Shown here one piece after another: positions 26,017 through 36,460 of a stretch of DNA of 64,000 nucleotides. The translations under genes were made by a program, and so were the position numbers. The notes under the pieces are model-generated. The model was not told the origin of the DNA and did not search any database. It saw only the letters and a program-made list of their open reading frames with translations. The stretch is from contig NZ_SMKW01000020.1 in assembly GCF_004348985.1 (NCBI RefSeq), positions 1 to 64,000 on the forward strand, given 5' to 3'. This DNA comes from Saccharopolyspora elongata (GTDB taxonomy: Bacteria > Actinomycetota > Actinomycetes > Mycobacteriales > Pseudonocardiaceae). How positions within the stretch are numbered: position 1 is the stretch's first letter; every line of letters begins with the position of its first letter.

Positions 26017-26727
26017 GTGTCGAGCGCAACACCACGCGAAGCCGTGTCCTCCGCCACTGCCGCCGCAGCCGAGCTCCCCGCCGCGGACCGCGCCTACCAG
26101 CACGTCAAGGCCGGCCTGCTGGACGGCAGCTACCCCGACGGTGAGCTGCTGTCCGAGGGCGAAGTGGCGAACGCGCTGCAGATGTCGCGCACCCCGGTGC
26201 GCGAAGCGTTCCTGCGACTGCAGACCGAAGGATTCCTGCGGCTGTACCCGAAGCGCGGCGCGCTGGTCGTGCCGGTGACCCCCACCGAGGCACGAGCCAT
26301 CGTCGAGGCGCGGCTTGCGCTGGAGAGCTTCGCCATCGACAAGCTCGCCATGCAGGGCCGCGAGGCGATGACCGCGGTCGGCGAGCAGCTGGCCGCGCAC
26401 CCGGCCTGCGATGCCGCCGACCTCAGCGACGCCGAGATGCACGAGACCGACCGCGCGTTCCACGCGACCCTGGTCGCCTCGGCAGGCAACCCCGTGGTCG
26501 CCGACCTCTACAACGCCCTGCGCGACAAGCAGATGCGGATCACCGCCATGGCCCGCACCCACGCCGTGCGCCCCCGCATCACCCAGCAGCACGCGCACCT
26601 CGCGGACGCGCTCCGCGACGGCGACCCCGAGCTGGCCAAATCCCGGCTGCGCGAGCACCTCCTGGGCACCGTCCGCGCGTTCGGCGTGGCAGGCGGCCCC
26701 TACCTCGACCCGGATTCGGACGTCTGA
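26017..26727 (+). CDS. GntR-family regulator, FCD subfamily (second)
   Basis: A 236-residue FCD-type GntR protein. The winged helix has YQHVKAGLLDGSYPDGELLS, VANALQMSRTPVREAFLRLQ and GFLRLYPKRGALVVPVTPTE. The FCD domain has metal-site-type residues in ETDRAFHATLVASAGNPVVA and QQHAHLADALRDGDPELAKS. It is divergent from the MFS gene with a palindrome between. The last 339 coding bases plus 34 bases downstream are repeated exactly at 35542-35914, which marks the far side of the mobile island. This copy is complete and looks functional. Confidence 0.93.
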   Translation: MSSATPREAVSSATAAAAELPAADRAYQHVKAGLLDGSYPDGELLSEGEVANALQMSRTPVREAFLRLQTEGFLRLYPKRGALVVPVTPTEARAIVEARLALESFAIDKLAMQGREAMTAVGEQLAAHPACDAADLSDAEMHETDRAFHATLVASAGNPVVADLYNALRDKQMRITAMARTHAVRPRITQQHAHLADALRDGDPELAKSRLREHLLGTVRAFGVAGGPYLDPDSDV

Positions 26728-26761
26728 CGCCGTTTTTGAGCAGTGAGCCGGTGCGGTCGGC
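26389..26761 (+). repeat. 373-bp direct repeat, left copy (gntR 3' end)
   Basis: Bases 26389-26761 match 35542-35914 without a difference that I can find. The repeat starts inside gntR and ends 34 bases after its stop, just before an AT-rich element. The two copies bracket the whole patchwork island, consistent with single-crossover integration or a tandem duplication followed by insertion. Confidence 0.92.
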
Positions 26762-26765
26762 TACC

Positions 26766-26812
26766 GGAGGGTTAATTTCGATCAACACTGAAATGATTAT
26801 GTTTATAAAAAT
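26766..26812. promoter_or_regulatory. AT-rich conserved element, copy 2 (left island junction)
   Basis: GGAGGGTTAATTTCGATCAA followed by CACTGAAATGATTATG and a run of A/T up to about 26812. ATTTC-N10-GAAAT is an inverted repeat. It lies directly after the left 373-bp repeat and before the Tn3 end. Related elements are at 1566, 35926 and 56841. Confidence 0.55.
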
Positions 26813-26845
26813 TTTATGACGGGCAAACTCAATGCCATGCAACCG

Positions 26846-26890
26846 GGGGTCCCCGTAGTACTCAGGAAATTTCGGGCGGATATGCCTGAG
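26846..26890 (+). mobile_element. Probable Tn3-family terminal inverted repeat
   Basis: GGGGTCCCCGTAGTACTCAG opens a segment that precedes the Tn3-type transposase start by under 100 bases. Tn3-family ends begin with GGGG and are about 38 bp. ACTCAGG and CCTGAGT form an inner inverted repeat. AT-rich DNA lies immediately outside, a common target for this family. I did not find the matching right end in the window. Confidence 0.6.
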
Positions 26891-26936
26891 TAAGCTTCTG
26901 AGCTGGGGGTCTTCGGGGTGCTGGCTGGAGGCGTGG

Positions 26937-27702
26937 GTGGCGCAGGTGTTCGCGGACGAGGAGTTGGAGCGCCTGCGGGGCTTCCCGGAGATCGGCCGGG
27001 ACGAGCTGTTCCGGTTCTTCACCCTCACCCCTGCGGACGTCGCCTTCGTGGACCCCGGTCGGGGCCGAGGTCCGGCGGACCGACTGGGCCTTGCGGTGGC
27101 GCTGTGCACGCTGCCGTGGCTGGGATTCGTGCCGGACAAGGTGTCTACCGCACCGCCGGTAGCGGTGGCCCGGCTGGCCGACCAGTTGGGTATCGACCCC
27201 GTCGAGCTGCGGTCCTACGGCCGGCGGGCGAAGACCCGCACCGAGCACCTGCGGCTGGTCGCGCAGTACCTGGGTTGGCACCCGCTGTCGACGCAGGAGC
27301 TCAAGGAGCTCGACGAGTTCCTGCTTACGCAAGCGATGGAGCACGACTCGCCCACGCTGCTGTACGGCCGAGCGGAAGATGCGCGACGCGCTGACCGAGC
27401 GCGGGAAGTCCGGAGAGGACCGCCAGGCCCTGCTCGACGAACTCCTGGACATCATCTTCGACCTGGGGCTCGACGACGAGCGGATCGGCGGCTTGATCCG
27501 GGGCGAGCGGATCGGGTGGCCCCGCCTACGGTCGGCACGGGAGCAGGCCGCGCCTCGGCTGCCGCGCGACCACGGGCACCTGGCTGCCCTGGATGGCTCC
27601 TACGGGTACCTGCGGCAGTTCACTCCGCAGGCCGAGGTGTCAGCGTGGCTGCTGCACTCCCGGTTCCCGCAGCAGCAGCGTCATTTCTTGCGGCTTCGGT
27701 GA
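26937..27702 (+). pseudogene. Tn3-family transposase remnant (DUF4158 N-terminal region)
   Basis: Two frames together give the N-terminal part of a Tn3 transposase of about 1000 residues. The first frame has DEELERLRGFPEIGRDELFR, RLGLAVALCTLPWLGFVPDK and HLRLVAQYLGWHPLSTQEL. After a frame change near 27375 the second has MRDALTERGKSGEDRQALLD and LPRDHGHLAALDGSYGYLRQ. The sequence between these blocks is too short, so there is an internal deletion as well as a frameshift. The DDE catalytic domain is missing. It cannot be functional. Confidence 0.85.
27111..27207 (+). repeat. 97-bp direct repeat, left copy (Tn3 transposase fragment)
   Basis: Bases 27111-27207, from CTGCCGTGGCTGGGATTC to CCCCGTCGAGC, are repeated in the same orientation at 35443-35539, fused there to the truncated gntR copy. 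This shows that the right boundary was built from the same transposon. Confidence 0.9.
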
Positions 27703-27793
27703 TCGCCACGCTCCCGCCGACGGCAGGAGGGCCTGTGACTCCGCCAGCGTGGGTGAGGGGAGCAGGCCGCTGCCAAAGCTCTTGAAGCGATGG

Positions 27794-27894
27794 CTTTGTG
27801 ACGGTGAGGAAGGTGGGGCGAGCATCGCGAGGGTGCTGTGCCGGTGCCGGGCGTCGTAGCGGCGCATCTGGCAGTGGTCGAGTTGGCCTCGAAA
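27794..27894 (-). pseudogene. Transposase C-terminal relic (IS701-like), left arm
   Basis: On the minus strand, two frames give GQLDHCQMRRYDARHRHSTL then TFLTVTK after a frameshift. This resembles the C-terminal end of IS701-type DDE transposases (...RRYDAWYRHVTLAMLAHAFLAVT...). Only about 100 bases remain. The same relic is in the right arm, in mirror orientation. Confidence 0.55.
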
Positions 27895-28025
27895 ACCGAC
27901 GGATGAGTGTCTCGGCGCAGTCACGATGTTCCTCATTTGCCCAGCTGTGCATTCTCCGGTGTCCTAACGGGCACTCCCCGTGACCTCGCTCCCGACTTGT
28001 ACGAAAGTCAGTGACCAAGTGGGAT

Positions 28026-28042
28026 CACCTGGTGCCCAGGTG
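28026..28042. promoter_or_regulatory. 17-bp palindrome upstream of E1alpha (CACCTGG-TGC-CCAGGTG)
   Basis: A perfect 7-bp inverted repeat with a 3-base spacer, centred about 35 bases before the GTG start. The same site lies upstream of the GRAS gene at 35157-35173. It could be a repressor operator or a 5'-UTR hairpin. The regulator is not identified. Confidence 0.6.
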
Positions 28043-28068
28043 GTCGAAGTTCCCCCGAGGAGACGAAT

Positions 28069-29049
28069 GTGGCCAGCGCAGCACCCCATCTAATCGGCGG
28101 CAGCACCACTGCGACGGAGACCACGGCACCCCAGCCCCGGACAGGCGCGGAGCCCCTGTCGCGGCTACCGGCCGAGGACCTCGACACCCTGCTGATGATC
28201 CGTCACTTCGAACTGGCCCTGCTGGAACTGTTCTCACAGGGTCTGCTGCACGGCACCACGCACACCTGCCTCGGGCAGGAATACATTCCCGTCGCACTCT
28301 ACGCACTGCTGGACGAGGGCGACTACGTCTTCAGCAACCACCGCGGGCACGGCCACTACCTGGCCCGCTTCCGGGACCCGCACGGCCTGCTGGCGGAGAT
28401 CATGGGGCGCGAGGGCGCCGTGTGCCACGGGGTGGGCGGCAGCCAGCACATCTACCGCGACCGCTACCTGTCCACCGGCGTACAGGGCGAGAGCCTGCCG
28501 GTGGCCGCGGGTGTCGCCCTGCACCTGCGACGGGCCGAGCCCGGACGGATCGCGGTGGTGCACATCGGCGACGGCACGTGGGGCGAAGGCGCGGTGTACG
28601 AGGCGCTCAACATGGCCCAGTTGTGGCGGCTGCCCCTGCTGGTCGTGGTCGAGAACAACAAGATCGCCCAGTCCACTCCGACCGAGCGGCAGATGGCCGG
28701 CACCATCCAGGCGCGCGCGGCGGCCTTCGGCATCCGGCACTACCACGTCACCTCTCATGATGTCGCCCGGGTGCGCCGGGAGTTGTCCGGCGTGATCGAC
28801 GACGTCCGCACCCAACACCAGCCCTTGGTGGTGGAGTTCACCACGAACCGCGTGGGCCCACACAGCAAGGGAGACGACTCCCGCCCCGCCGAGGTGATAC
28901 GGCACGCGGCCGCGCACGACTGGTACCACCGGTACGAGGAGCAGCACCCGGAGCATTTCGCCGTGGCGGACCGGAGCCAGCGACTGGCGATCGCCGAGGT
29001 CGTGCGCGAGGTCCAGGCCCGCCCCGCGTCCCGCTGGGAGCACTCATGA
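28069..29049 (+). CDS. 2-oxoacid dehydrogenase E1 component, alpha subunit
   Basis: A 326-residue thiamine-diphosphate enzyme subunit of the pyruvate/acetoin/branched-chain type. It has SNHRGHGHYLARFRDP, the GVGGSQHIYRDR segment, and the ThDP motif at about residues 167-197 (HIGDGTWGEGAVYEALNMAQ ... VVVENN). It decarboxylates a 2-oxoacid and passes the acyl group to lipoyl-E2. The family fold begins near residue 34. Residues 1-32 are a Ser/Thr/Ala/Pro-rich leader shared with the GRAS protein at 33941. GTG 28069 is supported by GAGGAG upstream and by conservation of this codon in both arms. It overlaps E1beta by ATGA. Confidence 0.93.
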   Translation: MASAAPHLIGGSTTATETTAPQPRTGAEPLSRLPAEDLDTLLMIRHFELALLELFSQGLLHGTTHTCLGQEYIPVALYALLDEGDYVFSNHRGHGHYLARFRDPHGLLAEIMGREGAVCHGVGGSQHIYRDRYLSTGVQGESLPVAAGVALHLRRAEPGRIAVVHIGDGTWGEGAVYEALNMAQLWRLPLLVVVENNKIAQSTPTERQMAGTIQARAAAFGIRHYHVTSHDVARVRRELSGVIDDVRTQHQPLVVEFTTNRVGPHSKGDDSRPAEVIRHAAAHDWYHRYEEQHPEHFAVADRSQRLAIAEVVREVQARPASRWEHS

Positions 29050-30059
29050 CCAGGCCGGAGCGGGTGATCGGCAACCTCAACCGGGCCCTGCACACGCTCC
29101 TCGACAACGATCCCCGCGCCTACGTCATCGGCGAGGACATCGCCGACCCGTACGGCGGCGCCTTCAAGGCCGCCCGGGGCCTGTCGGACCGCCACCCGGA
29201 ACGGGTGATCTCCTCGCCGATCAGCGAGGGCGGCATCGTGGGCGTCGCCGCCGGGCTCGCCCTGACCGGCAACCACCCGGTCGTGGAAATGATGTTCTCC
29301 GACTTCGCCGCCCTCGCCTTCGACCAACTCCTGAACTTCGCCAGCAAGTCCGTGTCGATGTACGGCCGCACCGTTCCGATGAGCATGGTGGTCCGCTGCC
29401 CCACCGGCGGCAACCGGGGCTACGGGCCGACCCACAGTCAGAGCCTGCAGAAGCACTTCATCGGCATCCCCGCGCTCAGCCTGCACGAGATGTCGCCGTT
29501 CCACGACAACGCGGACGTCCTCACCGCCATGCTCTCCCGCGAGCAGCCGTGCGTGCTGTTCGAGGACAAGACGCTCTACACCCGCACGATGCACCAGGGC
29601 GGGGTCGTCGACGACCTCTTCCGGTACGAGCTGCTCGACGACCCGAGCCGGACCGCGCGCGTGTTCCCCGTGGACTGCGGCGACCCGGACTGGATCATCC
29701 TGGCCCCCGGGGGCCTGACCGAGCGAGCCGTCGCCGCCATGCGCACCCTGCTGCTGGAGGAGGAAGTCACCTGCGAACTCCTGGTGCCCTCCCGGCTCTA
29801 CCCGTTCACCGTCGAACCGCTGCTCGCGACGGTGTCCCGCGCCCGCCGCATCTGTGTCGCAGAGGACAGCGCGGCAGACGGCACCTGGGGCGAAATGCTC
29901 GCCCAGCAGCTGCATGAGCACCTGTGGCGACGGCTGGCCCGCCCCGTACTGCTGCTCAGTGCCCAACCGAGCGTCATCCCCACCGCCGCCCACCTGGAGC
30001 ACACCGTCCTGCTCCAGGCGACCGCACTCCGCCGCGCCCTCACGGAGGCTTCCCAGTGA
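29046..30059 (+). CDS. 2-oxoacid dehydrogenase E1 component, beta subunit
   Basis: A 337-residue transketolase-like pyrimidine-domain protein. It has RAYVIGEDIADPYGGAFKAA, ISSPISEGGIVGVAAGLALT (the Glu that activates ThDP) and VEMMFSDFAALAFDQLLNFA. The C-terminal transketolase domain has WIILAPGGLTERAVAAMRTL. It pairs with the alpha subunit to form the E1 heterotetramer. The ATG overlaps the E1alpha stop, and its own stop overlaps the E2 GTG start, so the three genes are one translationally coupled operon. The substrate (pyruvate, acetoin-like, or branched 2-oxoacid) cannot be settled from sequence. Confidence 0.93.
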   Translation: MTRPERVIGNLNRALHTLLDNDPRAYVIGEDIADPYGGAFKAARGLSDRHPERVISSPISEGGIVGVAAGLALTGNHPVVEMMFSDFAALAFDQLLNFASKSVSMYGRTVPMSMVVRCPTGGNRGYGPTHSQSLQKHFIGIPALSLHEMSPFHDNADVLTAMLSREQPCVLFEDKTLYTRTMHQGGVVDDLFRYELLDDPSRTARVFPVDCGDPDWIILAPGGLTERAVAAMRTLLLEEEVTCELLVPSRLYPFTVEPLLATVSRARRICVAEDSAADGTWGEMLAQQLHEHLWRRLARPVLLLSAQPSVIPTAAHLEHTVLLQATALRRALTEASQ

Positions 30060-31234
30060 TCAGCGTCAAGCTGCCCACCCTCAACACCAACGACGCCAGC
30101 TACGTCTTGGTCGAATGGCTCGCCGAGCACGGCTCACGCATCAAGAAAGGGCAGCCGCTGGTGGTGATCGAGACCTCCAAGGCCCAGGAAGAGATCGACA
30201 GCACCGCCGACGGCATCCTGCACACCCTCCTCGCAGGCGGCGCTGACTGCCGCCCCGGTCAGACCGTCGCCCACCTCTTCGCCTCGGCGGACGAACGCCA
30301 TGCCTACCTCTCCGCACCAACCGTCGACCCCACCGCACGGCCGGAGCCGGCAACCGATGCCGGCCTGACGCTCACCAAGGCGGCGCGCGCCCTCGCGGAC
30401 CAGCACGGCCTGACCGACAACGAACTGCGCGGACTGGGCCGCACCGTGATCCGCGCAGCCGACATCGAAGCGCTGCTGCCACGCCCCGCGCAAGCCGGTG
30501 CCCCCACCGACCGGCAACTGTCGGCGCAACAGCGGACGGTGGGCGCCGTGGTCACCGAGTCGATGCGCACCATCCCGGCCGCCGCCGCCTACGCCAAGGT
30601 CGACGTCGGCCAGGCTCAGGACCTCGCCCGGCAACTGCGCCAGCGCACCGGCAGCATCGTCTCCCTGCTCAGCCTCCTCATCAAGTCGGTGGCAGACCAA
30701 CTCCCGGCGCACCCAAGCCTGTTCACCCGGCTCCTCGACGACGGCACCATCCAGCCCGCCCCCTGCGCACACGTCGCGGTGGCCGTGGACGCCGGAAAGG
30801 GCCTGTACACCCCGGTCGTACACAACACCGCCGCGCTGAGCGTCGCCCAGATCGCCGACTTGATAACAGGATTCCGCGACAAAGCCGTCCGCGGCACTTT
30901 CCGAGCCGACGAGCTCACCGGCGCCAACATCTTGATCGCTCCGCACACCGCCGACGGTGTGGTCTTCGCCACCCCCATCGTCTTCCCCGGCCAGACCTGC
31001 GCGCTCTCCCTGGGCGGCATCGACGAACAGCTCGTCCTGGACCAGCGAGGCAGGCCGGAAGCCCGCCGGTTCACGTACCTCGGTCTGGTCTACGACCATC
31101 GCGTGGTCAACGGCCGCGACGCGATGGCCTTCCTTGGCGACCTCAAACAAGCACTGGAGACACCAGCCGCCCTCGCGGCCGGTACCGAAGGCGACGAGGA
31201 CGCGCCAAAGAAGGCGTGCGAGCCCCCGACCTGA
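30056..31234 (+). CDS. 2-oxoacid dehydrogenase E2 acyltransferase
   Basis: A 392-residue E2 with one N-terminal lipoyl domain (Lys42 in VVIETSKAQEEID), a linker, and a peripheral subunit-binding domain near residues 105-141 (LTLTKAARALADQHGLTDNE). The catalytic acyltransferase domain runs from about residue 155. The active-site motif reads DHRVVNG: His348 is present, but the usual Asp of HxxxDG is Asn352. It transfers the acyl group to CoA. GTG 30056 overlaps the E1beta stop. No E3 lipoamide dehydrogenase is encoded nearby, so E3 must be supplied from elsewhere. An acidic tail (EGDEDAPKK) closes the protein. Confidence 0.92.
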   Translation: MISVKLPTLNTNDASYVLVEWLAEHGSRIKKGQPLVVIETSKAQEEIDSTADGILHTLLAGGADCRPGQTVAHLFASADERHAYLSAPTVDPTARPEPATDAGLTLTKAARALADQHGLTDNELRGLGRTVIRAADIEALLPRPAQAGAPTDRQLSAQQRTVGAVVTESMRTIPAAAAYAKVDVGQAQDLARQLRQRTGSIVSLLSLLIKSVADQLPAHPSLFTRLLDDGTIQPAPCAHVAVAVDAGKGLYTPVVHNTAALSVAQIADLITGFRDKAVRGTFRADELTGANILIAPHTADGVVFATPIVFPGQTCALSLGGIDEQLVLDQRGRPEARRFTYLGLVYDHRVVNGRDAMAFLGDLKQALETPAALAAGTEGDEDAPKKACEPPT

Positions 31235-31349
31235 CAGGGGGCCTCCACGCGCGGCGCGGCAGCCGGAGCACGGCGTCCGAAGCCCACTCCTCGGCATACG
31301 ACTGCGGGTGCCGGGGAAGTGATCGCTGCCTATGCACCCACCTGGTCCC

Positions 31350-32829
31350 TGTGATGTGTGACGTCTCAATTGATCTTTGACCTTTTGTTGTCGACACATG
31401 CTTACCCTCATGCGCGGCGTCATGGGGCAGGGGCTTTGAAGTGCCGGATGGGCTGTTGGGTGTTGCGGGGGTGGACGGACAGCTCGGTGGAACCGTCGAG
31501 GACCCGGAAGTGGGTGTCCTCGACGAGGATGGTGACGGTCTTGCCGGCGTGAGTGCGTCCGATGCGGAGCCGCTGGCGGGCGACCATGACCACGCCGTCT
31601 TTGGGCACGCGACGCTGGACGTGCTGCGAACCGGATGGTGGGCGCGGTGGCAGCGGCTCGGTCGTGATCCGCGCTCCACGCAGGCGTGCGCGCTGGTCGT
31701 GGTCAACGGGCGCGGGCAGGGTCTTGACCAACTGGCCGTCGCGGATGACGTGCGCGAGGTGGCCGTCCAGGCGAAGGGTGACTTGTGCACCGGCGAGTTG
31801 TGGATCGAGGTAGAGGTACTTGCCTCCGAGCTGCGTGGAGCCGTCGCGGGTGACGATGCGGTCGACCTCGATCACGGTGGCTGGCGGAAGAAGGCTGGCG
31901 CGGGGCGGCGCTGGCGCAGCGGGCGCCGGTCCGGCTGGGCGTGCTCCACGCATCATCAGCTGCTGGAGGTGCGTGTCGGACAGGCGGGAAGAGACGGTCT
32001 TGAGGTGGTTGCCGTCGAGGAGGACGTGAACGCTGCGATGGTCGGCCCAGACGGTGATGAGCCGGCCGACGAAGTGCTTGCCCAACCACAGTTGCTGATG
32101 TCCGACCAGACTGACATTCCCCGACGTCGGAACGATCACGTCGATCTCCACCGCGTTGTGTAACGCGGTGTTCGACGCCGCGGGAGCTGCCGGTGGTGTG
32201 ATGGGACTCGGGCCCTGTAGTTCGACATCCGCGGTGTCGACTGGTGCTGGTCGTTCCTGATCGACCGCTGTGTTCGTCTGCCGAAGGCGAGGCCGGAAAA
32301 GACTGGCGGGGGTTGCCATGTCCAGCGATTGGTGCGGCCGGTCGTGATTGTAGGACTGGATCCAGGCGTCCAGAGCATCCTGGGCTGCGTGGATGTCGGC
32401 GAACTCGCCGGCCTCGTCCAGGAGCTCGCGGCGCAGGGTTTGGTGCCAGCGCTCGATTTTTCCCGTAGTGGTGGGCGACCGGCGTTTGGTCAGCCGGTGG
32501 GTGACTCCATACTCGCGGCACGTCCGCTCGAACAGCACCTCGGCGGGGACAGGACGGGTGAACCGGCCGGTGAACTGCTTGCCGTTGTCCGTGAGCACTT
32601 CGAACGGCACACCGTAGTGACGTATTGCCGCGGTGAACGCCTCGACCACCGCGCCGCCGGTTGGGCGTTCCAGCACGGTGGCGGCGACAACGAACCGGAG
32701 TGGTCGTCGATGGCGGTGAGGATTTTGCACTCCCGGCCGTCGGCGAGGAACACCCCGCCCACGAGGTCGAGCTGCCATAAGTGCATCGGCGCTTCCCGTT
32801 GCGATGTCTCGAGGCGTCACACGACACCC
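31350..32829 (-). mobile_element. Degenerate IS481-family insertion sequence
   Basis: The left end TGTGATGTGTGACGTCTCAA at 31350 is similar to the reverse complement of the sequence ending at about 32829 (GTGTCGTGTGACGCCTCGAG), giving imperfect terminal repeats. The transposase between them lacks its N-terminal DNA-binding part and carries a frameshift. Boundaries are estimates. Confidence 0.6.
31420..32786 (-). pseudogene. IS481-family transposase, frameshifted and N-truncated
   Basis: The frame from 32786 gives MHLWQLDLVGGVFLADGREC with KILTAIDDHS. It then shifts near 32697 into FVVAATVLERPTGGAVVEAF, VPFEVLTDNGKQFTGRF, RRSPTTTGKIERWHQTLRRE and YNHDRPHQSLDMATPASLF. The DDE residues (D in WQLD, D in LTDNG, E in KIERWH) are recognisable but are in two frames. 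The N-terminal helix-turn-helix is absent. A long C-terminal extension with repeated beta-rich segments (KTVTILVEDTHFRVLDG and similar) is typical of actinobacterial members. Not functional as it stands. Confidence 0.82.
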
Positions 32830-33940
32830 GGCGGCGGGGCGAGCGTGCGCCCGTAGTCGCGTGGAGCAGGTGGCGCCGGTCCCCTATGAGGAGCGGTCCA
32901 GCGGTCGGGCCGGCAGGTTTGTATCCAGTGCTCCATGAAGGAGTTCATCGACGGCATTCGGATGCCGCTGGTGACGACAGTGATCCCGTCGAAGGACTGA
33001 GTGTGCGGCTGGTCCGGTCAGTCAGCCTTCGGCGGCGCTCCGCAATGCCGAGAAGTTAGGGCTCGGGCTGCTCCCTCAAGCGAGTGGGCGAAAGTCTGTA
33101 GTGCCCCTGTTTGGGTCGTTCCAGGAAGCCGAGAGTGGCCCCCGCGGACGCGTCCCAGCCAGGCGCGGTTATCGGTGGTGTCCGGCATGTGCAGTGAGTG
33201 GCAGCCGTCGAAGGCCACCGTGCGTAGCCCGCGATAGCCCACGCCCGGCGTGCCGACCGAGGAGCGGAACCGCCAGGACCTCGAACAATGCGCGAAACGG
33301 CGTCGGCCCCGGCCGGGCCCGCAGATGCCGCAGCGCCGCCGCAGTAGGGCGCGTAGTCCGAGTGCCCCATGAGTGGACCAGCTTCTCCCACACCAGTGCC
33401 ATCCCCAGGTGCGGGAACAGACTCAAGGCGGGCACAAACTACACGCCGCAGAGGGATGGCAGCAGGCGCAGTCGTTGCTGGAGCCGACCGGTCTCCGTCA
33501 GGACCGGTCGGCGTCCCTCCTGAACGACGGTCTGGCTATCGGGCGGCCCGGGAACCTCCGGCGCCCTGGGGATCTCGACGCACGGTCATCGTCCCCAGGT
33601 CCTCGGCGGTTGCCGGCGTCAGCGTCCCCCTGGCCCATTACGTGACGTTCCGGGTGGGGAATTGGCTGACCGTCGACACATGTACAGCCGTGCGCGCTTC
33701 CAGCCGCTCCTGCATACCCGGATCTCACCCAGCCATAAAGAGTGCCGGCAACGGCACGGCCCGGCCGGAACCCGGAGCCGACATCCCGCTGTTCGTCGCC
33801 TCCTGCGTGTTCACCAAGCAAGGCCGCGCGTTCGGTTGTCCGAAGGCCGCGAGCGCCACTTGAGGTATGGATAAGCAACCGCGGAGAGCACAGACAGGTG
33901 CTCGGCAGGTGCGGTCAACCGCGCAGGCCCCCGGGATGCC
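32830..33940. other. Transposon scar region without an intact gene
   Basis: Over 1.1 kb between the IS481 relic and the GRAS gene. A frameshifted IS4-like fragment occupies 33060-33440. The rest contains short open frames on both strands with no recognisable family, no clear ribosome binding sites and weak GC3 bias. I see no supported gene here. Confidence 0.6.
33060..33440 (-). pseudogene. IS4-family transposase N-terminal fragment
   Basis: Minus-strand frames give FPHLGMALVWEKLVHSWG, then PTAAALRHLRARPGPTPFRA with LFEVLAVPLLGRHAGRGL, and in another frame GYRGLRTVAFDGCHSLHMPD with NRAWLGR. These are consecutive blocks of the N-terminal region of IS4-type transposases, split by frameshifts. 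The catalytic C-terminal part is missing. Confidence 0.7.
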
Positions 33941-35131
33941 TCATCCGGCAGGACGCGCGCCGATGACTGAGCAGACCGTGGCGTCGCGATAACCGAGCCG
34001 GACCTGCTCGGGCAGGACGCGAACCGTGAAGTCCGCGGGGAGCGAGGGTACCCGAAGCCCCGGGGCGTCACCGTAAGGCTCGAAGCCGCAGCGGCGCAGC
34101 CGGTTGATCCAGGTAGCGGCCGCCTCGTGCCGCTCGAAACGCTGGTCGTCGGTGCGCGAGCCGACGATGTTCATGACCTCGCGGGCGAAGAACGTCTTCA
34201 TGTGGTCCTTCTCCTGCCGGGTGGCAGGCGCGGCCTCGATGGCGCGAAGGATGGTGCCGAAGAACCGCCATGAGTTGAAGAACCGCTGCGGGAAGGACAC
34301 CTCATGGTGGTCGGTGTCGAACTCGTTCAGCACCACCCCGCACGGGACCAGCATGCGCAACCGCTGGAAGAACTCGTCCCGGGCGTCGTGACCGGGACTC
34401 GGGTCCTGCATGTGGTGGAGCGCCAAAGAGGCGTTGACCACCAACGGGACGTCAATACGGGACAGGCTCATCCAGTCGTCATCGTCAAGTTCCTCAGCCA
34501 CCTTCGCCACGGGGAGGAAGTCCAGATCGACACCGTGCTCGGCCGCGGCCTGCCGCAGGGTGCGCTCGGCTGTGGCCAGGCTTTCCCGGTCGGGGTCGAC
34601 ACCGATGACCGTGCAGTGACGCAATCCCGGGTTTCCGGCCGCGAGACTGTGCAGCAGCGCGCTCTCCTGGCGGCCGTGCCCAATGCCGACCGACATCAGG
34701 GCGAAGTCGTCCGCGGCGCCCACCTGCCCGGCGAGCAGCTCGTTGACGACCCGGCTCGTGTCCATGAACGGCAGGTGGGTGGTGAGCAGGTAGTACAGAT
34801 CGATCTGCGGCTGGTCGTAGGCCTGTGTGTACAGGTTGGTCTCCGAGGGGCTGCCGTGCTCCTCGACACGGTTGACCAGTGCGGCACGGTAGAGCTCGTA
34901 CGCCGCGTCCTGCGGCCGCACCTCGGGCCCGATCAGCTTCCGCAAGGTCTCCAGCGCGGGACGGGCCTGCGCGGGGCGGCCGGCGTGGATGTGGGCGACG
35001 GCGTCGCACAGCAGGGCAAACTTCTCCATGCCTGTCCGCGACAGGGGCTCCGCGCCTGTCCGGGGCGCGGGTGCCGTGGTCTCCGTCGCAGTGGTGCTGC
35101 CGCCGATGAGATGGTGTGCTGCGCTGGCCAC
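33941..35131 (-). CDS. Bacterial GRAS-family protein (Rossmann methyltransferase-like)
   Basis: A 396-residue protein with the GRAS pattern of plant DELLA/SCARECROW regulators. A leucine-rich helical region spans about 40-130. A VHIID-like Rossmann segment is at 143-180 (FALMSVGIGHGRQESALLHS, then TVIGVDP). VVNASLALHHM lies at 231-241, and FPQRFFNSWRFFGTILRAIE at 280-299. FFAREVMNIVGSR and RFERHEAAATWINRLRRCGF follow at 314-350, and a SAW-like end closes it. Bacterial GRAS domains are considered relatives of small-molecule methyltransferases. Residues 1-32 are the same leader as in E1alpha. GTG 35131 is chosen since that codon and the GGAGA before it are conserved in both arms. It is convergent with the dehydrogenase operon. 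Confidence 0.78.
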   Translation of the reverse strand: MASAAHHLIGGSTTATETTAPAPRTGAEPLSRTGMEKFALLCDAVAHIHAGRPAQARPALETLRKLIGPEVRPQDAAYELYRAALVNRVEEHGSPSETNLYTQAYDQPQIDLYYLLTTHLPFMDTSRVVNELLAGQVGAADDFALMSVGIGHGRQESALLHSLAAGNPGLRHCTVIGVDPDRESLATAERTLRQAAAEHGVDLDFLPVAKVAEELDDDDWMSLSRIDVPLVVNASLALHHMQDPSPGHDARDEFFQRLRMLVPCGVVLNEFDTDHHEVSFPQRFFNSWRFFGTILRAIEAAPATRQEKDHMKTFFAREVMNIVGSRTDDQRFERHEAAATWINRLRRCGFEPYGDAPGLRVPSLPADFTVRVLPEQVRLGYRDATVCSVIGARPAG

Positions 35132-35156
35132 AGTCGTCTCCTTAGGGAACTTCGAC

Positions 35157-35173
35157 CACCTGGGCACCAGGTG
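35157..35173. promoter_or_regulatory. 17-bp palindrome upstream of the GRAS gene
   Basis: CACCTGG-GCA-CCAGGTG, the exact mirror copy of the site at 28026-28042, centred about 34 bases upstream of the GRAS start codon. It suggests common control of both units. Confidence 0.6.
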
Positions 35174-35305
35174 ATCCCACTTGGTCACTGACTTTCGTAC
35201 AAGTCGGGAGCGAGGTCACGGGGAGTGCCCGTTAGGACACCGGAGAATGCACAGCTGGGCAAATGAGGAACATCGTGACTGCGCCGAGACACTCATCCGT
35301 CGGTT

Positions 35306-35406
35306 TTCGAGGCCAACTCGACCACTGCCAGATGCGCCGCTACGACGCCCGGCACCGGCACAGCACCCTCGCGATGCTCGCCCCACCTTCCTCACCGTCA
35401 CAAAGC
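35306..35406 (+). pseudogene. Transposase C-terminal relic (IS701-like), right arm
   Basis: Mirror copy of the relic at 27794-27894. Plus-strand frames give QLDHCQMRRYDARHRHSTLA then TFLTVTK. Non-functional fragment. Confidence 0.55.
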
Positions 35407-35442
35407 CATCGCTTCAAGAGCTTTGGCAGCGGCCTGCCCCCT

Positions 35443-35539
35443 CTGCCGTGGCTGGGATTCGTGCCGGACAAGGTGTCTACCGCACCGCCGGTAGCGGTGG
35501 CCCGGCTGGCCGACCAGTTGGGTATCGACCCCGTCGAGC
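35443..35539 (+). repeat. 97-bp direct repeat, right copy (Tn3 transposase fragment)
   Basis: Identical to 27111-27207. It is joined at 35540-35541 directly to the truncated gntR copy, with GAGCA microhomology at the junction. Confidence 0.9.
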
Positions 35540-35541
35540 AA

Positions 35542-35880
35542 CTGGCCGCGCACCCGGCCTGCGATGCCGCCGACCTCAGCGACGCCGAGATGCACGAGAC
35601 CGACCGCGCGTTCCACGCGACCCTGGTCGCCTCGGCAGGCAACCCCGTGGTCGCCGACCTCTACAACGCCCTGCGCGACAAGCAGATGCGGATCACCGCC
35701 ATGGCCCGCACCCACGCCGTGCGCCCCCGCATCACCCAGCAGCACGCGCACCTCGCGGACGCGCTCCGCGACGGCGACCCCGAGCTGGCCAAATCCCGGC
35801 TGCGCGAGCACCTCCTGGGCACCGTCCGCGCGTTCGGCGTGGCAGGCGGCCCCTACCTCGACCCGGATTCGGACGTCTGA
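35542..35880 (+). pseudogene. gntR 3' fragment (FCD domain only)
   Basis: The last 113 codons of the gntR at 26017 are repeated here without the DNA-binding part. An open frame from 35263 runs through the transposase relics into this fragment and would encode a 205-residue chimera ending in the FCD ligand domain. I see no convincing ribosome binding site for it, so I treat it as a pseudogene. Confidence 0.8.
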
Positions 35881-35914
35881 CGCCGTTTTTGAGCAGTGAG
35901 CCGGTGCGGTCGGC
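35542..35914 (+). repeat. 373-bp direct repeat, right copy
   Basis: Exact copy of 26389-26761. It marks the right edge of the island. The next 12 or so bases differ from the left side, but an AT-rich element of the same family follows on both sides. Confidence 0.92.
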
Positions 35915-35923
35915 GGCCGATCA

Positions 35924-35969
35924 GAGGATTAATTTCGATCAAACTGAAATGATTGCGGTTATAGAATTA
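35924..35969. promoter_or_regulatory. AT-rich conserved element, copy 3 (right island junction)
   Basis: GAGGATTAATTTCGATCAAA followed by CTGAAATGATTGCGGTTATAGA. It is like copy 2 with one base deleted in the spacer and several substitutions, so it is an independent element rather than part of the recent 373-bp duplication. Confidence 0.55.
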
Positions 35970-36007
35970 CTGCGCCGGGCCGAGCCGAAGCCCGGCCCGG
36001 CGCAGGT

Positions 36008-36460
36008 CTACGCCACGCAGAACTCGTTGCCTTCGGGGTCCTGCATGAGCCACCAGTGCCCGGCGGGCCCCTGGTCGAACTCGCGGACGCGGGTCGCTCC
36101 CAGCCCTTCCAGCCGGGCCACCAGCTCCTCGCGGCCGCCGGGCTCGCTGTGGACGTCGACGTGCAGGCGGTTCTTGCCGGCCTTGCCCTCGGGCACGTCC
36201 TGGAAGAGCAGTCGCCTGCCGCGGCCGACGCCGCTGGTCTCGTCGAACGGGTCCTCGGGGTGGCGGACTGCGGCGTAGCCGCGGAAGTTCTTGCGGCCGC
36301 GATGCTCGACGACCGCCTCCTCGCCGATGTGGCCGGCGGCCAGCAGCTGCTCGATGAGCGCGCTGGGGTCTTCCACCTCGTAGCCCAGGGCCTCGGCCCA
36401 GAAGTCCGCGAGGACGGGTGCGTTCGCGCTGTCGATGACCAGCTTCCAGTTCAGTGCCAT
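36008..36460 (-). CDS. VOC (glyoxalase/dioxygenase fold) protein
   Basis: A 150-residue VOC-superfamily protein with WKLVIDSANAPVLADFWAEA at the start, NRLHVDVHSEPGGREELVAR in the middle and WWLMQDPEGNEFCVA at the end. The usual metal-site positions (His in LHVDV, Glu in GNEFC) are present. These small actinobacterial members often bind or modify toxins or metabolites; the ligand is unknown. A GTAACC/GGTTAC palindrome touches the start codon. It follows the WYL regulator gene on the same strand by about 55 bases and may be co-regulated with it. Confidence 0.9.
   Translation of the reverse strand: MALNWKLVIDSANAPVLADFWAEALGYEVEDPSALIEQLLAAGHIGEEAVVEHRGRKNFRGYAAVRHPEDPFDETSGVGRGRRLLFQDVPEGKAGKNRLHVDVHSEPGGREELVARLEGLGATRVREFDQGPAGHWWLMQDPEGNEFCVA

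Follow-up and report, generated by a model that had tools for sequence, protein, structure and literature searches.

Here we describe a compact, mobile cassette of four actinomycete genes, in which a GRAS-domain protein is encoded together with the E1 alpha (E1a), E1 beta (E1b) and E2 genes of a 2-oxoacid dehydrogenase-type operon. The cassette was recovered from a 64,000-nucleotide stretch of the Saccharopolyspora elongata genome (10.3 Mb in 277 contigs), hereafter the window. Bacterial GRAS proteins as such are already known; what is new is the mobile E1/E2-GRAS cassette. We tentatively propose, at a probability of roughly 45%, that the GRAS protein is a small-molecule methyltransferase working on a 2-oxo or acyl unit, and that the four genes jointly make one modified acyl unit.

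A bacterial GRAS-domain protein

The GRAS gene occupies 33941-35131 on the reverse strand and encodes 396 residues when read from a GTG codon. Using hmmscan against Pfam, PF03514 was matched with an E value of 9.3e-34 and 117.4 bits, far above the curated cut-off of 27, the match spanning residues 59-372 of the longest open reading frame and positions 4-327 of the 374 in the profile. The sole further Pfam match at E<=0.1, to Methyltransf_12, reached 18.9 bits and thus stayed below its cut-off of 30, and as no other methyltransferase family scores higher, the GRAS assignment of the first-pass annotation is upheld. The four GRAS blocks which that annotation had listed are likewise all present and in the right order, although the spacing of the first is N-x4-LHHM (NASLALHHM) rather than the N-x3 originally given. 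All nine aligned bacterial members also match PF03514. In a phmmer search of PDB sequences the best match was rice SCL7 (5hyz, E 7.5e-17), followed by SCL3, RGA, SCARECROW and SHORT-ROOT.

An AlphaFold2 model, generated with nine bacterial sequences as input, had a pLDDT of 87.6 and a pTM of 0.85. Congruent with the sequence matches, the top 12 Foldseek matches of this model were plant GRAS chains with TM values up to 0.82 (about 0.8 for SCL3, RGA and SCL7), and class I methyltransferases followed from rank 13 onward at a much lower level (TM ~0.4, rmsd 10-16 Å). The nearest non-GRAS folds were histamine N-methyltransferase and then SgvM, with ketoleucine or SAM bound, and 4m6x, a Streptomyces hygroscopicus methyltransferase which we take to be MppJ, appeared at rank 19. 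A viral fold library returned mainly methyltransferases and capping enzymes (best E 3e-6). By sequence, a profile search of the PDB up to E 10 yielded GRAS proteins first and otherwise only MraW (E 0.0027) and the nitrogenase iron protein, with no link to histamine N-methyltransferase, SgvM or 4m6x. Profile, PDB sequence search and fold together rule out a chance motif match, and the protein is a true GRAS-domain protein with a predicted GRAS fold, composed of a Rossmann core and a helical cap.

Partner genes and the type of acyl unit

That the GRAS gene lies opposite a 2-oxoacid dehydrogenase operon, as first annotated, was confirmed with Pfam, the three operon genes being convergent with GRAS. 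E1a (28069-29049, forward strand) encodes the alpha subunit of a thiamine diphosphate enzyme (PF00676, E 1.2e-46), E1b (29046-30059, forward strand) was assigned through PF02779/PF02780 and a tree and carries the signature RGYGPTHSQS, and E2 (30053-31234, forward strand) combines a lipoyl (PF00364) with an acyltransferase (PF00198) domain. Such a make-up is common to pyruvate and other 2-oxo acid dehydrogenase complexes, but the best NCBIfam scores of the cassette proteins fall far below the curated cut-offs (195.9 against 393.85 for E1a, 132.3 against 321 for E1b, and 128.3 against 449 for E2). These cut-offs and the E1b tree rule out a housekeeping pyruvate or 2-oxoglutarate complex.

In the tree, computed without Qnc/Scl sequences, the cassette E1b falls inside an 11-row clade (support 100/99), separate from three other E1b genes and together with genes of Paenibacillus polymyxa, Streptomyces NBC_01136, Streptantibioticus, Nonomuraea and the renieramycin cluster, the latter presumably with a role in glycolyl-unit formation; the E1a tree was poorly resolved. 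Judged by this placement, the cassette E1b groups with the glycolyl-unit type of NRPS/PKS clusters, and with this grouping the product initially annotated as acyl-CoA may instead be a glycolyl-thioester. For SclQ1-4 of scleric acid biosynthesis, the original report assigns such genes to glycolyl-unit synthesis from a ketose phosphate (PMC6335953). QncN/QncL/QncM and SclQ1-4 resemble the cassette in that E1a, E1b and E2 are separate genes of similar size (PMC6335953), whereas the cassette has a GRAS gene added and no ACP found.

Among plasmid records, the nearest E1b relatives (55-60% identical) belong to Nonomuraea, Streptantibioticus and two Streptomyces, NBC_01136 and NBC_01384. The NBC_01136 genes form part of an NRPS/PKS cluster and are arranged as ACP-E1a-E1b-E2. 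Using this ACP as a tblastn query, nothing was detected at E<1 in the six cassette loci, the sole match being one of 21 residues at E 6.5 in Lentzea aerocolonigenes, in a search of limited sensitivity that recovered both P. polymyxa ACP genes and nothing significant in two of the E1b-relative loci (L049 and L051). The query itself reads GWTSL, not the carrier motif G-x-D-S. No NRPS/PKS gene was noticed near the cassette by inspection rather than profile search, and the window has one open reading frame of at least 900 residues.

A SAM methyltransferase gene is located nearby in two of four E1b relatives, P. polymyxa and Streptantibioticus, a count that sets the renieramycin cluster aside and for which neighbours were judged by annotation (L050, L052), by Pfam on selected genes (L049, L052) or from protein starts only (L051). 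In the PKS cluster of the P. polymyxa plasmid (L052, 7588-13014), E2, methyltransferase, ACP, E1a and E1b genes stand in a row, possibly a functional analogue of the E1/E2-GRAS cassette.

Such an arrangement is of relevance for an alternative in which the GRAS protein would be an O-methyltransferase that follows E2 and modifies the hydroxyl of the glycolyl-thioester, giving a methoxyacetyl product, with the aminotransferase partners of other GRAS proteins (see below) representing a separate story. Both the glycolyl-type grouping of E1b and the P. polymyxa gene row are consistent with it, and a precedent exists in methoxymalonyl-ACP synthesis, where an O-methyltransferase acts on an ACP-bound 2-hydroxyacyl unit. 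However, no ACP was found in the cassette and the 22/22 aminotransferase fusions would be left unexplained, and we regard this route as conceivable yet somewhat unlikely.

Distribution and conservation of the cassette

To delineate the distribution, a pattern-based, non-exhaustive scan of GTDB genomes was used, which returned eight relatives among 69 candidate stretches. Further searches covered 22 genomes of the genus (two with GRAS), 390 of the family (five with GRAS), 397 of the order, searched by protein (the own genome, one distant relative, and a weak match, G1068, at E 8.9e-4 over query residues 129-195, left out of the count), and 396 sampled Actinomycetota genomes, where the own genome alone was found. 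The subtype present in the window was detected in six genomes at 92-98% protein identity: the window, S. shandongensis, Streptomyces sp. NBRC 110028, L. aerocolonigenes, L. albida and 'Nocardia' sp. NRRL S-836, the last counted as a Lentzea because it falls in the same genus grouping as the other two.

E1a, E1b and E2 adjoin GRAS in 6/6 of these genomes. The three Lentzea have E1a-E1b-E2-GRAS in a row on one strand; in the Streptomyces and both Saccharopolyspora, GRAS is inverted and convergent, with a different upstream region. DNA identity of the cassette genes is ~91-98% among the six, and 96-97% between Saccharopolyspora and Streptomyces, whereas most flanking sequence is unmatched, one additional upstream gene being shared by L. 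aerocolonigenes and L. albida. With high identity inside mostly unmatched flanks, the cassette has thus been passed among distantly related actinomycetes in recent times.

Median dN/dS was 0.21 for GRAS (15 pairs), 0.21 for E1b (10), 0.33 for the E1a core (15) and 0.52 for E2 (10), the pairs excluding E1b of 'Nocardia' sp. NRRL S-836 and E2 of L. albida. By this measure all four genes come out as under purifying selection. Some close pairs display high values, such as 1.3 for window/S. shandongensis GRAS and 0.75 for window/Streptomyces E1b, each resting on very few changes.

In Streptomyces sp. NBRC 110028 a GntR/FCD regulator gene and an ABM-domain gene precede GRAS on the same strand (L018, 6563-8000). 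As GRAS stands behind these genes, its control in this strain probably differs from that at the other loci.

A mobile island and a copied leader

In the window, GRAS is located within an insertion of approximately 26822-35531, and the matching site of S. shandongensis is empty. The left neighbour of the insertion is a GntR/FCD regulator gene (26017-26727, forward strand) with a close relative in 22/22 genomes of the genus, and the right neighbour is a glyoxalase-like gene (36008-36460, reverse strand). At the empty site the GntR gene is directly followed by the glyoxalase and WYL genes, which in the window lie to the right of the island. Transposase remnants were recovered as well. A Tn3-family transposase fragment (DUF4158 part; PF13700, E 8.6e-37) is situated at 26937-27785 on the forward strand, and a ~1.5 kb insertion sequence (31350-32826, reverse strand), with terminal repeats TGTGACGYCTCRA and a rve/Mu-type transposase reading frame at 31420-32820, separates E2 from GRAS. 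The latter is missing from the sequence of Streptomyces sp. NBRC 110028, and S. shandongensis also has the transposase. The empty site and these remnants bear out the earlier placement of the gene inside a mobile island. A blastn search of plasmid DNA returned 24 records, none of which covers the cassette; among the 20 matches listed, 19 are annotated as Tn3 transposase and one has no feature there.

The host target DNA is present on both sides of the island, as a left copy at 26379-26821 (forward strand; GntR 3' end and following sequence) and a right copy at 35532-35966 (forward strand), with 422 of 431 aligned bases identical. At ~440 bp, it far exceeds a transposon target duplication. The right flank consists of short copies of the left flank (35434-35539 and 35532-35831); the first, on the forward strand, is a second copy of 27102-27207 from the Tn3 fragment and shares 8 bases with the neighbouring sequence at either end (35434-35441 and 35532-35539). 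The 8-base overlaps of this patchwork suggest copying with (microhomology-mediated) template switches rather than simple transposition.

The sequence ahead of the GRAS gene has been exchanged. The native start is the ATG at 35029, common to the Lentzea and Streptomyces orthologues and giving 362 residues (33941-35029). In these orthologues the ATG is preceded by a ribosome-binding site, GGAGGCTGCTGCCCG or a close variant; in the window this stretch has been replaced by the one found upstream of E1a, copied in inverted orientation. As seen in an alignment of the two repeat arms and in the upstream regions of six loci, the 34 codons ahead of the native start (35030-35131, reverse strand) include 32 copied from E1a, in frame. 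One arm of the inverted repeat (27758-28164, forward strand) takes in the first 32 codons of E1a together with the leader and upstream region of that gene, and the other places the same leader ahead of GRAS (35036-35441, reverse strand). Of its ~407 bp, the outer 297 nt contain a single mismatch, and identity falls to 94% in the inner 112 nt, pointing to probable later homogenisation of the outer part by gene conversion. The annotated boundaries of 33941-35131 are hence correct for the GTG start behind the leader of E1a, and the promoter and leader said to be shared with the operon take the form of this repeat, in which no sigma-70-like promoter was recognised by a consensus scan of 27700-28200. 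At Rfam gathering scores, no known RNA element was found in 26700-36100. The S. shandongensis cassette contig (6500 bp) ends within matching leader sequence at both sides, as expected when an assembly meets a repeat of this kind; it has only 33 nt ahead of the GRAS start, and these agree with the copied leader.

Part of the leader (27937-28022), which includes the near-palindrome GACTTGTACGAAAGTC, turns up again at 84-92% identity in three Saccharopolyspora genomes, immediately ahead of a gluconolactonase-like (SGL) gene; one copy is at G000:C229:49124-49211. One of the three is without GRAS, and in two of the three a panB-like gene, recognised by eye, lies near the leader-bearing SGL gene. 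'Nocardia' sp. NRRL S-836 has a panB-like gene (by eye) and an SGL gene near GRAS.

Considering the conserved linkage, the purifying selection and the copied leader, GRAS and E1/E2 are likely to serve one pathway. The opposite view, that the genes are together merely through joint movement, gains something from their mobility and from the high DNA identity between Saccharopolyspora and Streptomyces. However, GRAS stays beside E1/E2 after inversion, the E1a leader has been re-supplied in the window and median dN/dS is around 0.2, making such hitch-hiking very improbable.

Other bacterial GRAS proteins

The three distant loci from the scan all have a PLP aminotransferase. It adjoins GRAS in a Chitinophagaceae and a Frankineae metagenome-assembled genome (L020 and L022), and is fused to GRAS in Botryobacter ruber (Hymenobacteraceae), where the HisC equivalog cut-off is passed. 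Within the Hymenobacteraceae, GRAS was found in 22 of 200 genomes searched, Botryobacter included, each time as a single chain of 716-774 residues with a HisC-like aminotransferase and its PLP lysine motif (22/22). These fusions outscore the window protein on PF03514, with 278-322 bits. Two Skermanella from desert sand have GRAS on large plasmids beside a PAS-domain sensor kinase gene, with neither E1/E2 nor aminotransferase neighbours.

No E1/E2 homologue was detected in the distant GRAS loci, of which the 22 fusion loci were covered by ~1.5 kb on each side only, and no homologue of the Botryobacter aminotransferase lies beside the cassette loci. The co-occurrence with E1/E2 that the first-pass annotation had thought worth surveying therefore stands for the present subtype and fails for the distant bacterial loci examined; as a rule for bacterial GRAS genes at large it is rejected (L020-L023, L026-L048). 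Compared with distant bacterial members, the cassette protein shows 24-32% identity. The Hymenobacteraceae fusions likewise tie GRAS to an enzyme of 2-oxo compounds, there as a HisC-like aminotransferase in the same chain, whereas E1/E2 of the cassette are separate genes. With the aminotransferase fused (22/22) or adjoining (two more), 2-oxo compounds would be a natural common denominator.

Conserved linkage speaks for the same pathway and not necessarily for the same substrate, and GRAS could methylate another target, such as an amine acceptor, the E2 protein or the final product, having only the end product in common with E1/E2. The conserved unit is nonetheless made of four genes without an acceptor enzyme, and most flanks differ among the genomes; we thus consider another target quite unlikely.

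Conserved residues and proposed function

The window protein was aligned with 26 other bacterial GRAS domains. Unchanged in 26/26 are G115, G117 and G119 of the glycine loop, N199, H205, H206, E236 and E284, as one would expect of an active site. H241 is found in 24 of the 26, and both Skermanella proteins are missing H241 as well as H301. At residue 113, the position of the motif-I acid, the six cassette proteins have Ser (SVGIGHG) and 26/26 others have Asp, and this serine is the main doubt on the methyltransferase reading. A SgvM-like metal site was considered and appears not to be matched, as H205/H206 have no second conserved histidine at the spacing of the SgvM ligands H244 and H296. The SgvM/MppJ 2-keto acid C-methyltransferases, although among the nearest non-GRAS folds, seem to differ from the cassette GRAS in this two-histidine pattern, and no sequence similarity to them was found.

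The serine could hint at a non-catalytic protein, a character also assumed for plant GRAS proteins, which would bind or regulate the cassette product and steer E1/E2 or transcription; plant members are regulators, and a leader derived from E1a would match expression. Nevertheless, the G-x-G-x-G loop is retained, as are LHH, E236 and the GVD that follows strand 2, no DNA-binding Pfam domain was found in the protein at E<=0.1, and histamine N-methyltransferase, the best non-GRAS fold, also has a serine in motif I and is active. A binder or regulator is consequently judged unlikely.

Returning to the methyltransferase reading, this activity is likely in view of the fold and the glycine loop. Both kinds of partner enzyme, E1/E2 and aminotransferase, work on small 2-oxo or hydroxyacyl compounds, and we therefore propose that it is this unit which is methylated. 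In the cassette, the lipoyl arm of E2 would receive from E1 a two-carbon unit, or a unit left by decarboxylation of a 2-oxo acid. GRAS would use S-adenosylmethionine to methylate the 2-oxo precursor or the hydroxyacyl unit. Methylation could be on carbon or oxygen and could precede or follow E2, and the product would be a methylated acyl thioester, for example a methyl-branched or methoxyacetyl one. In the aminotransferase-GRAS fusions, the methylated 2-oxo compound would instead go on to transamination. For the functional pair envisaged at first, acyl-CoA production plus modification of a small molecule, the genes are indeed together in all six genomes, the acyl-CoA may have to be replaced by the glycolyl-thioester, and the joint function is one that we infer.

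Several observations weigh against the proposal. With TM ~0.4 and rmsd 10-16 Å, the ranking of histamine methyltransferase, SgvM and 4m6x in the predicted model is weak. If a ketose phosphate is the substrate of E1, there would be no free 2-oxo acid. Skermanella GRAS occurs with neither partner, and the search for a carrier protein in the cassette was negative. The motif-I serine of the cassette, against Asp in all 26 others, and the high dN/dS of some close pairs may further detract from it.

Relation to known systems and significance

Profile score, motif order and predicted fold of the cassette protein are alike to those of the PF03514 family (plant DELLA, SCARECROW, SHORT-ROOT and SCL), from which it differs in being bacterial, in being encoded with E1/E2 and in having Ser rather than Asp in motif I. 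Zhang, Iyer and Aravind reportedly proposed in 2012 that bacterial GRAS proteins methylate small molecules, and we know of no experimental functional test of these proteins. As cited in a later article, bacterial GRAS proteins were reported in 2012 as relatives of Rossmann methyltransferases (via PMC4279901). In the open-licence literature we found no report of the E1/E2-GRAS cassette or of aminotransferase-GRAS fusions. According to another study, plant GRAS genes are held to derive from soil bacteria by horizontal transfer (PMC9942845).

A wider scenario, speculative and on balance improbable, is that bacterial GRAS proteins are 2-oxo/hydroxyacyl methyltransferases in which the enzyme of the next step is swapped by lineage, that the cassette provides a methylated acyl unit in portable form, and that plant DELLA/SCARECROW proteins owe their ligand pocket to this enzyme site. 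Independent of this scenario, a mobile cassette with acyl-unit enzymes in soil actinomycetes is a concrete lead on the role of bacterial GRAS proteins, and the aminotransferase-GRAS fusions represent a second, independent handle on their function. Being compact, with four genes and biochemically defined partner families, and occurring in named actinomycete strains, the cassette makes bacterial GRAS function directly testable.
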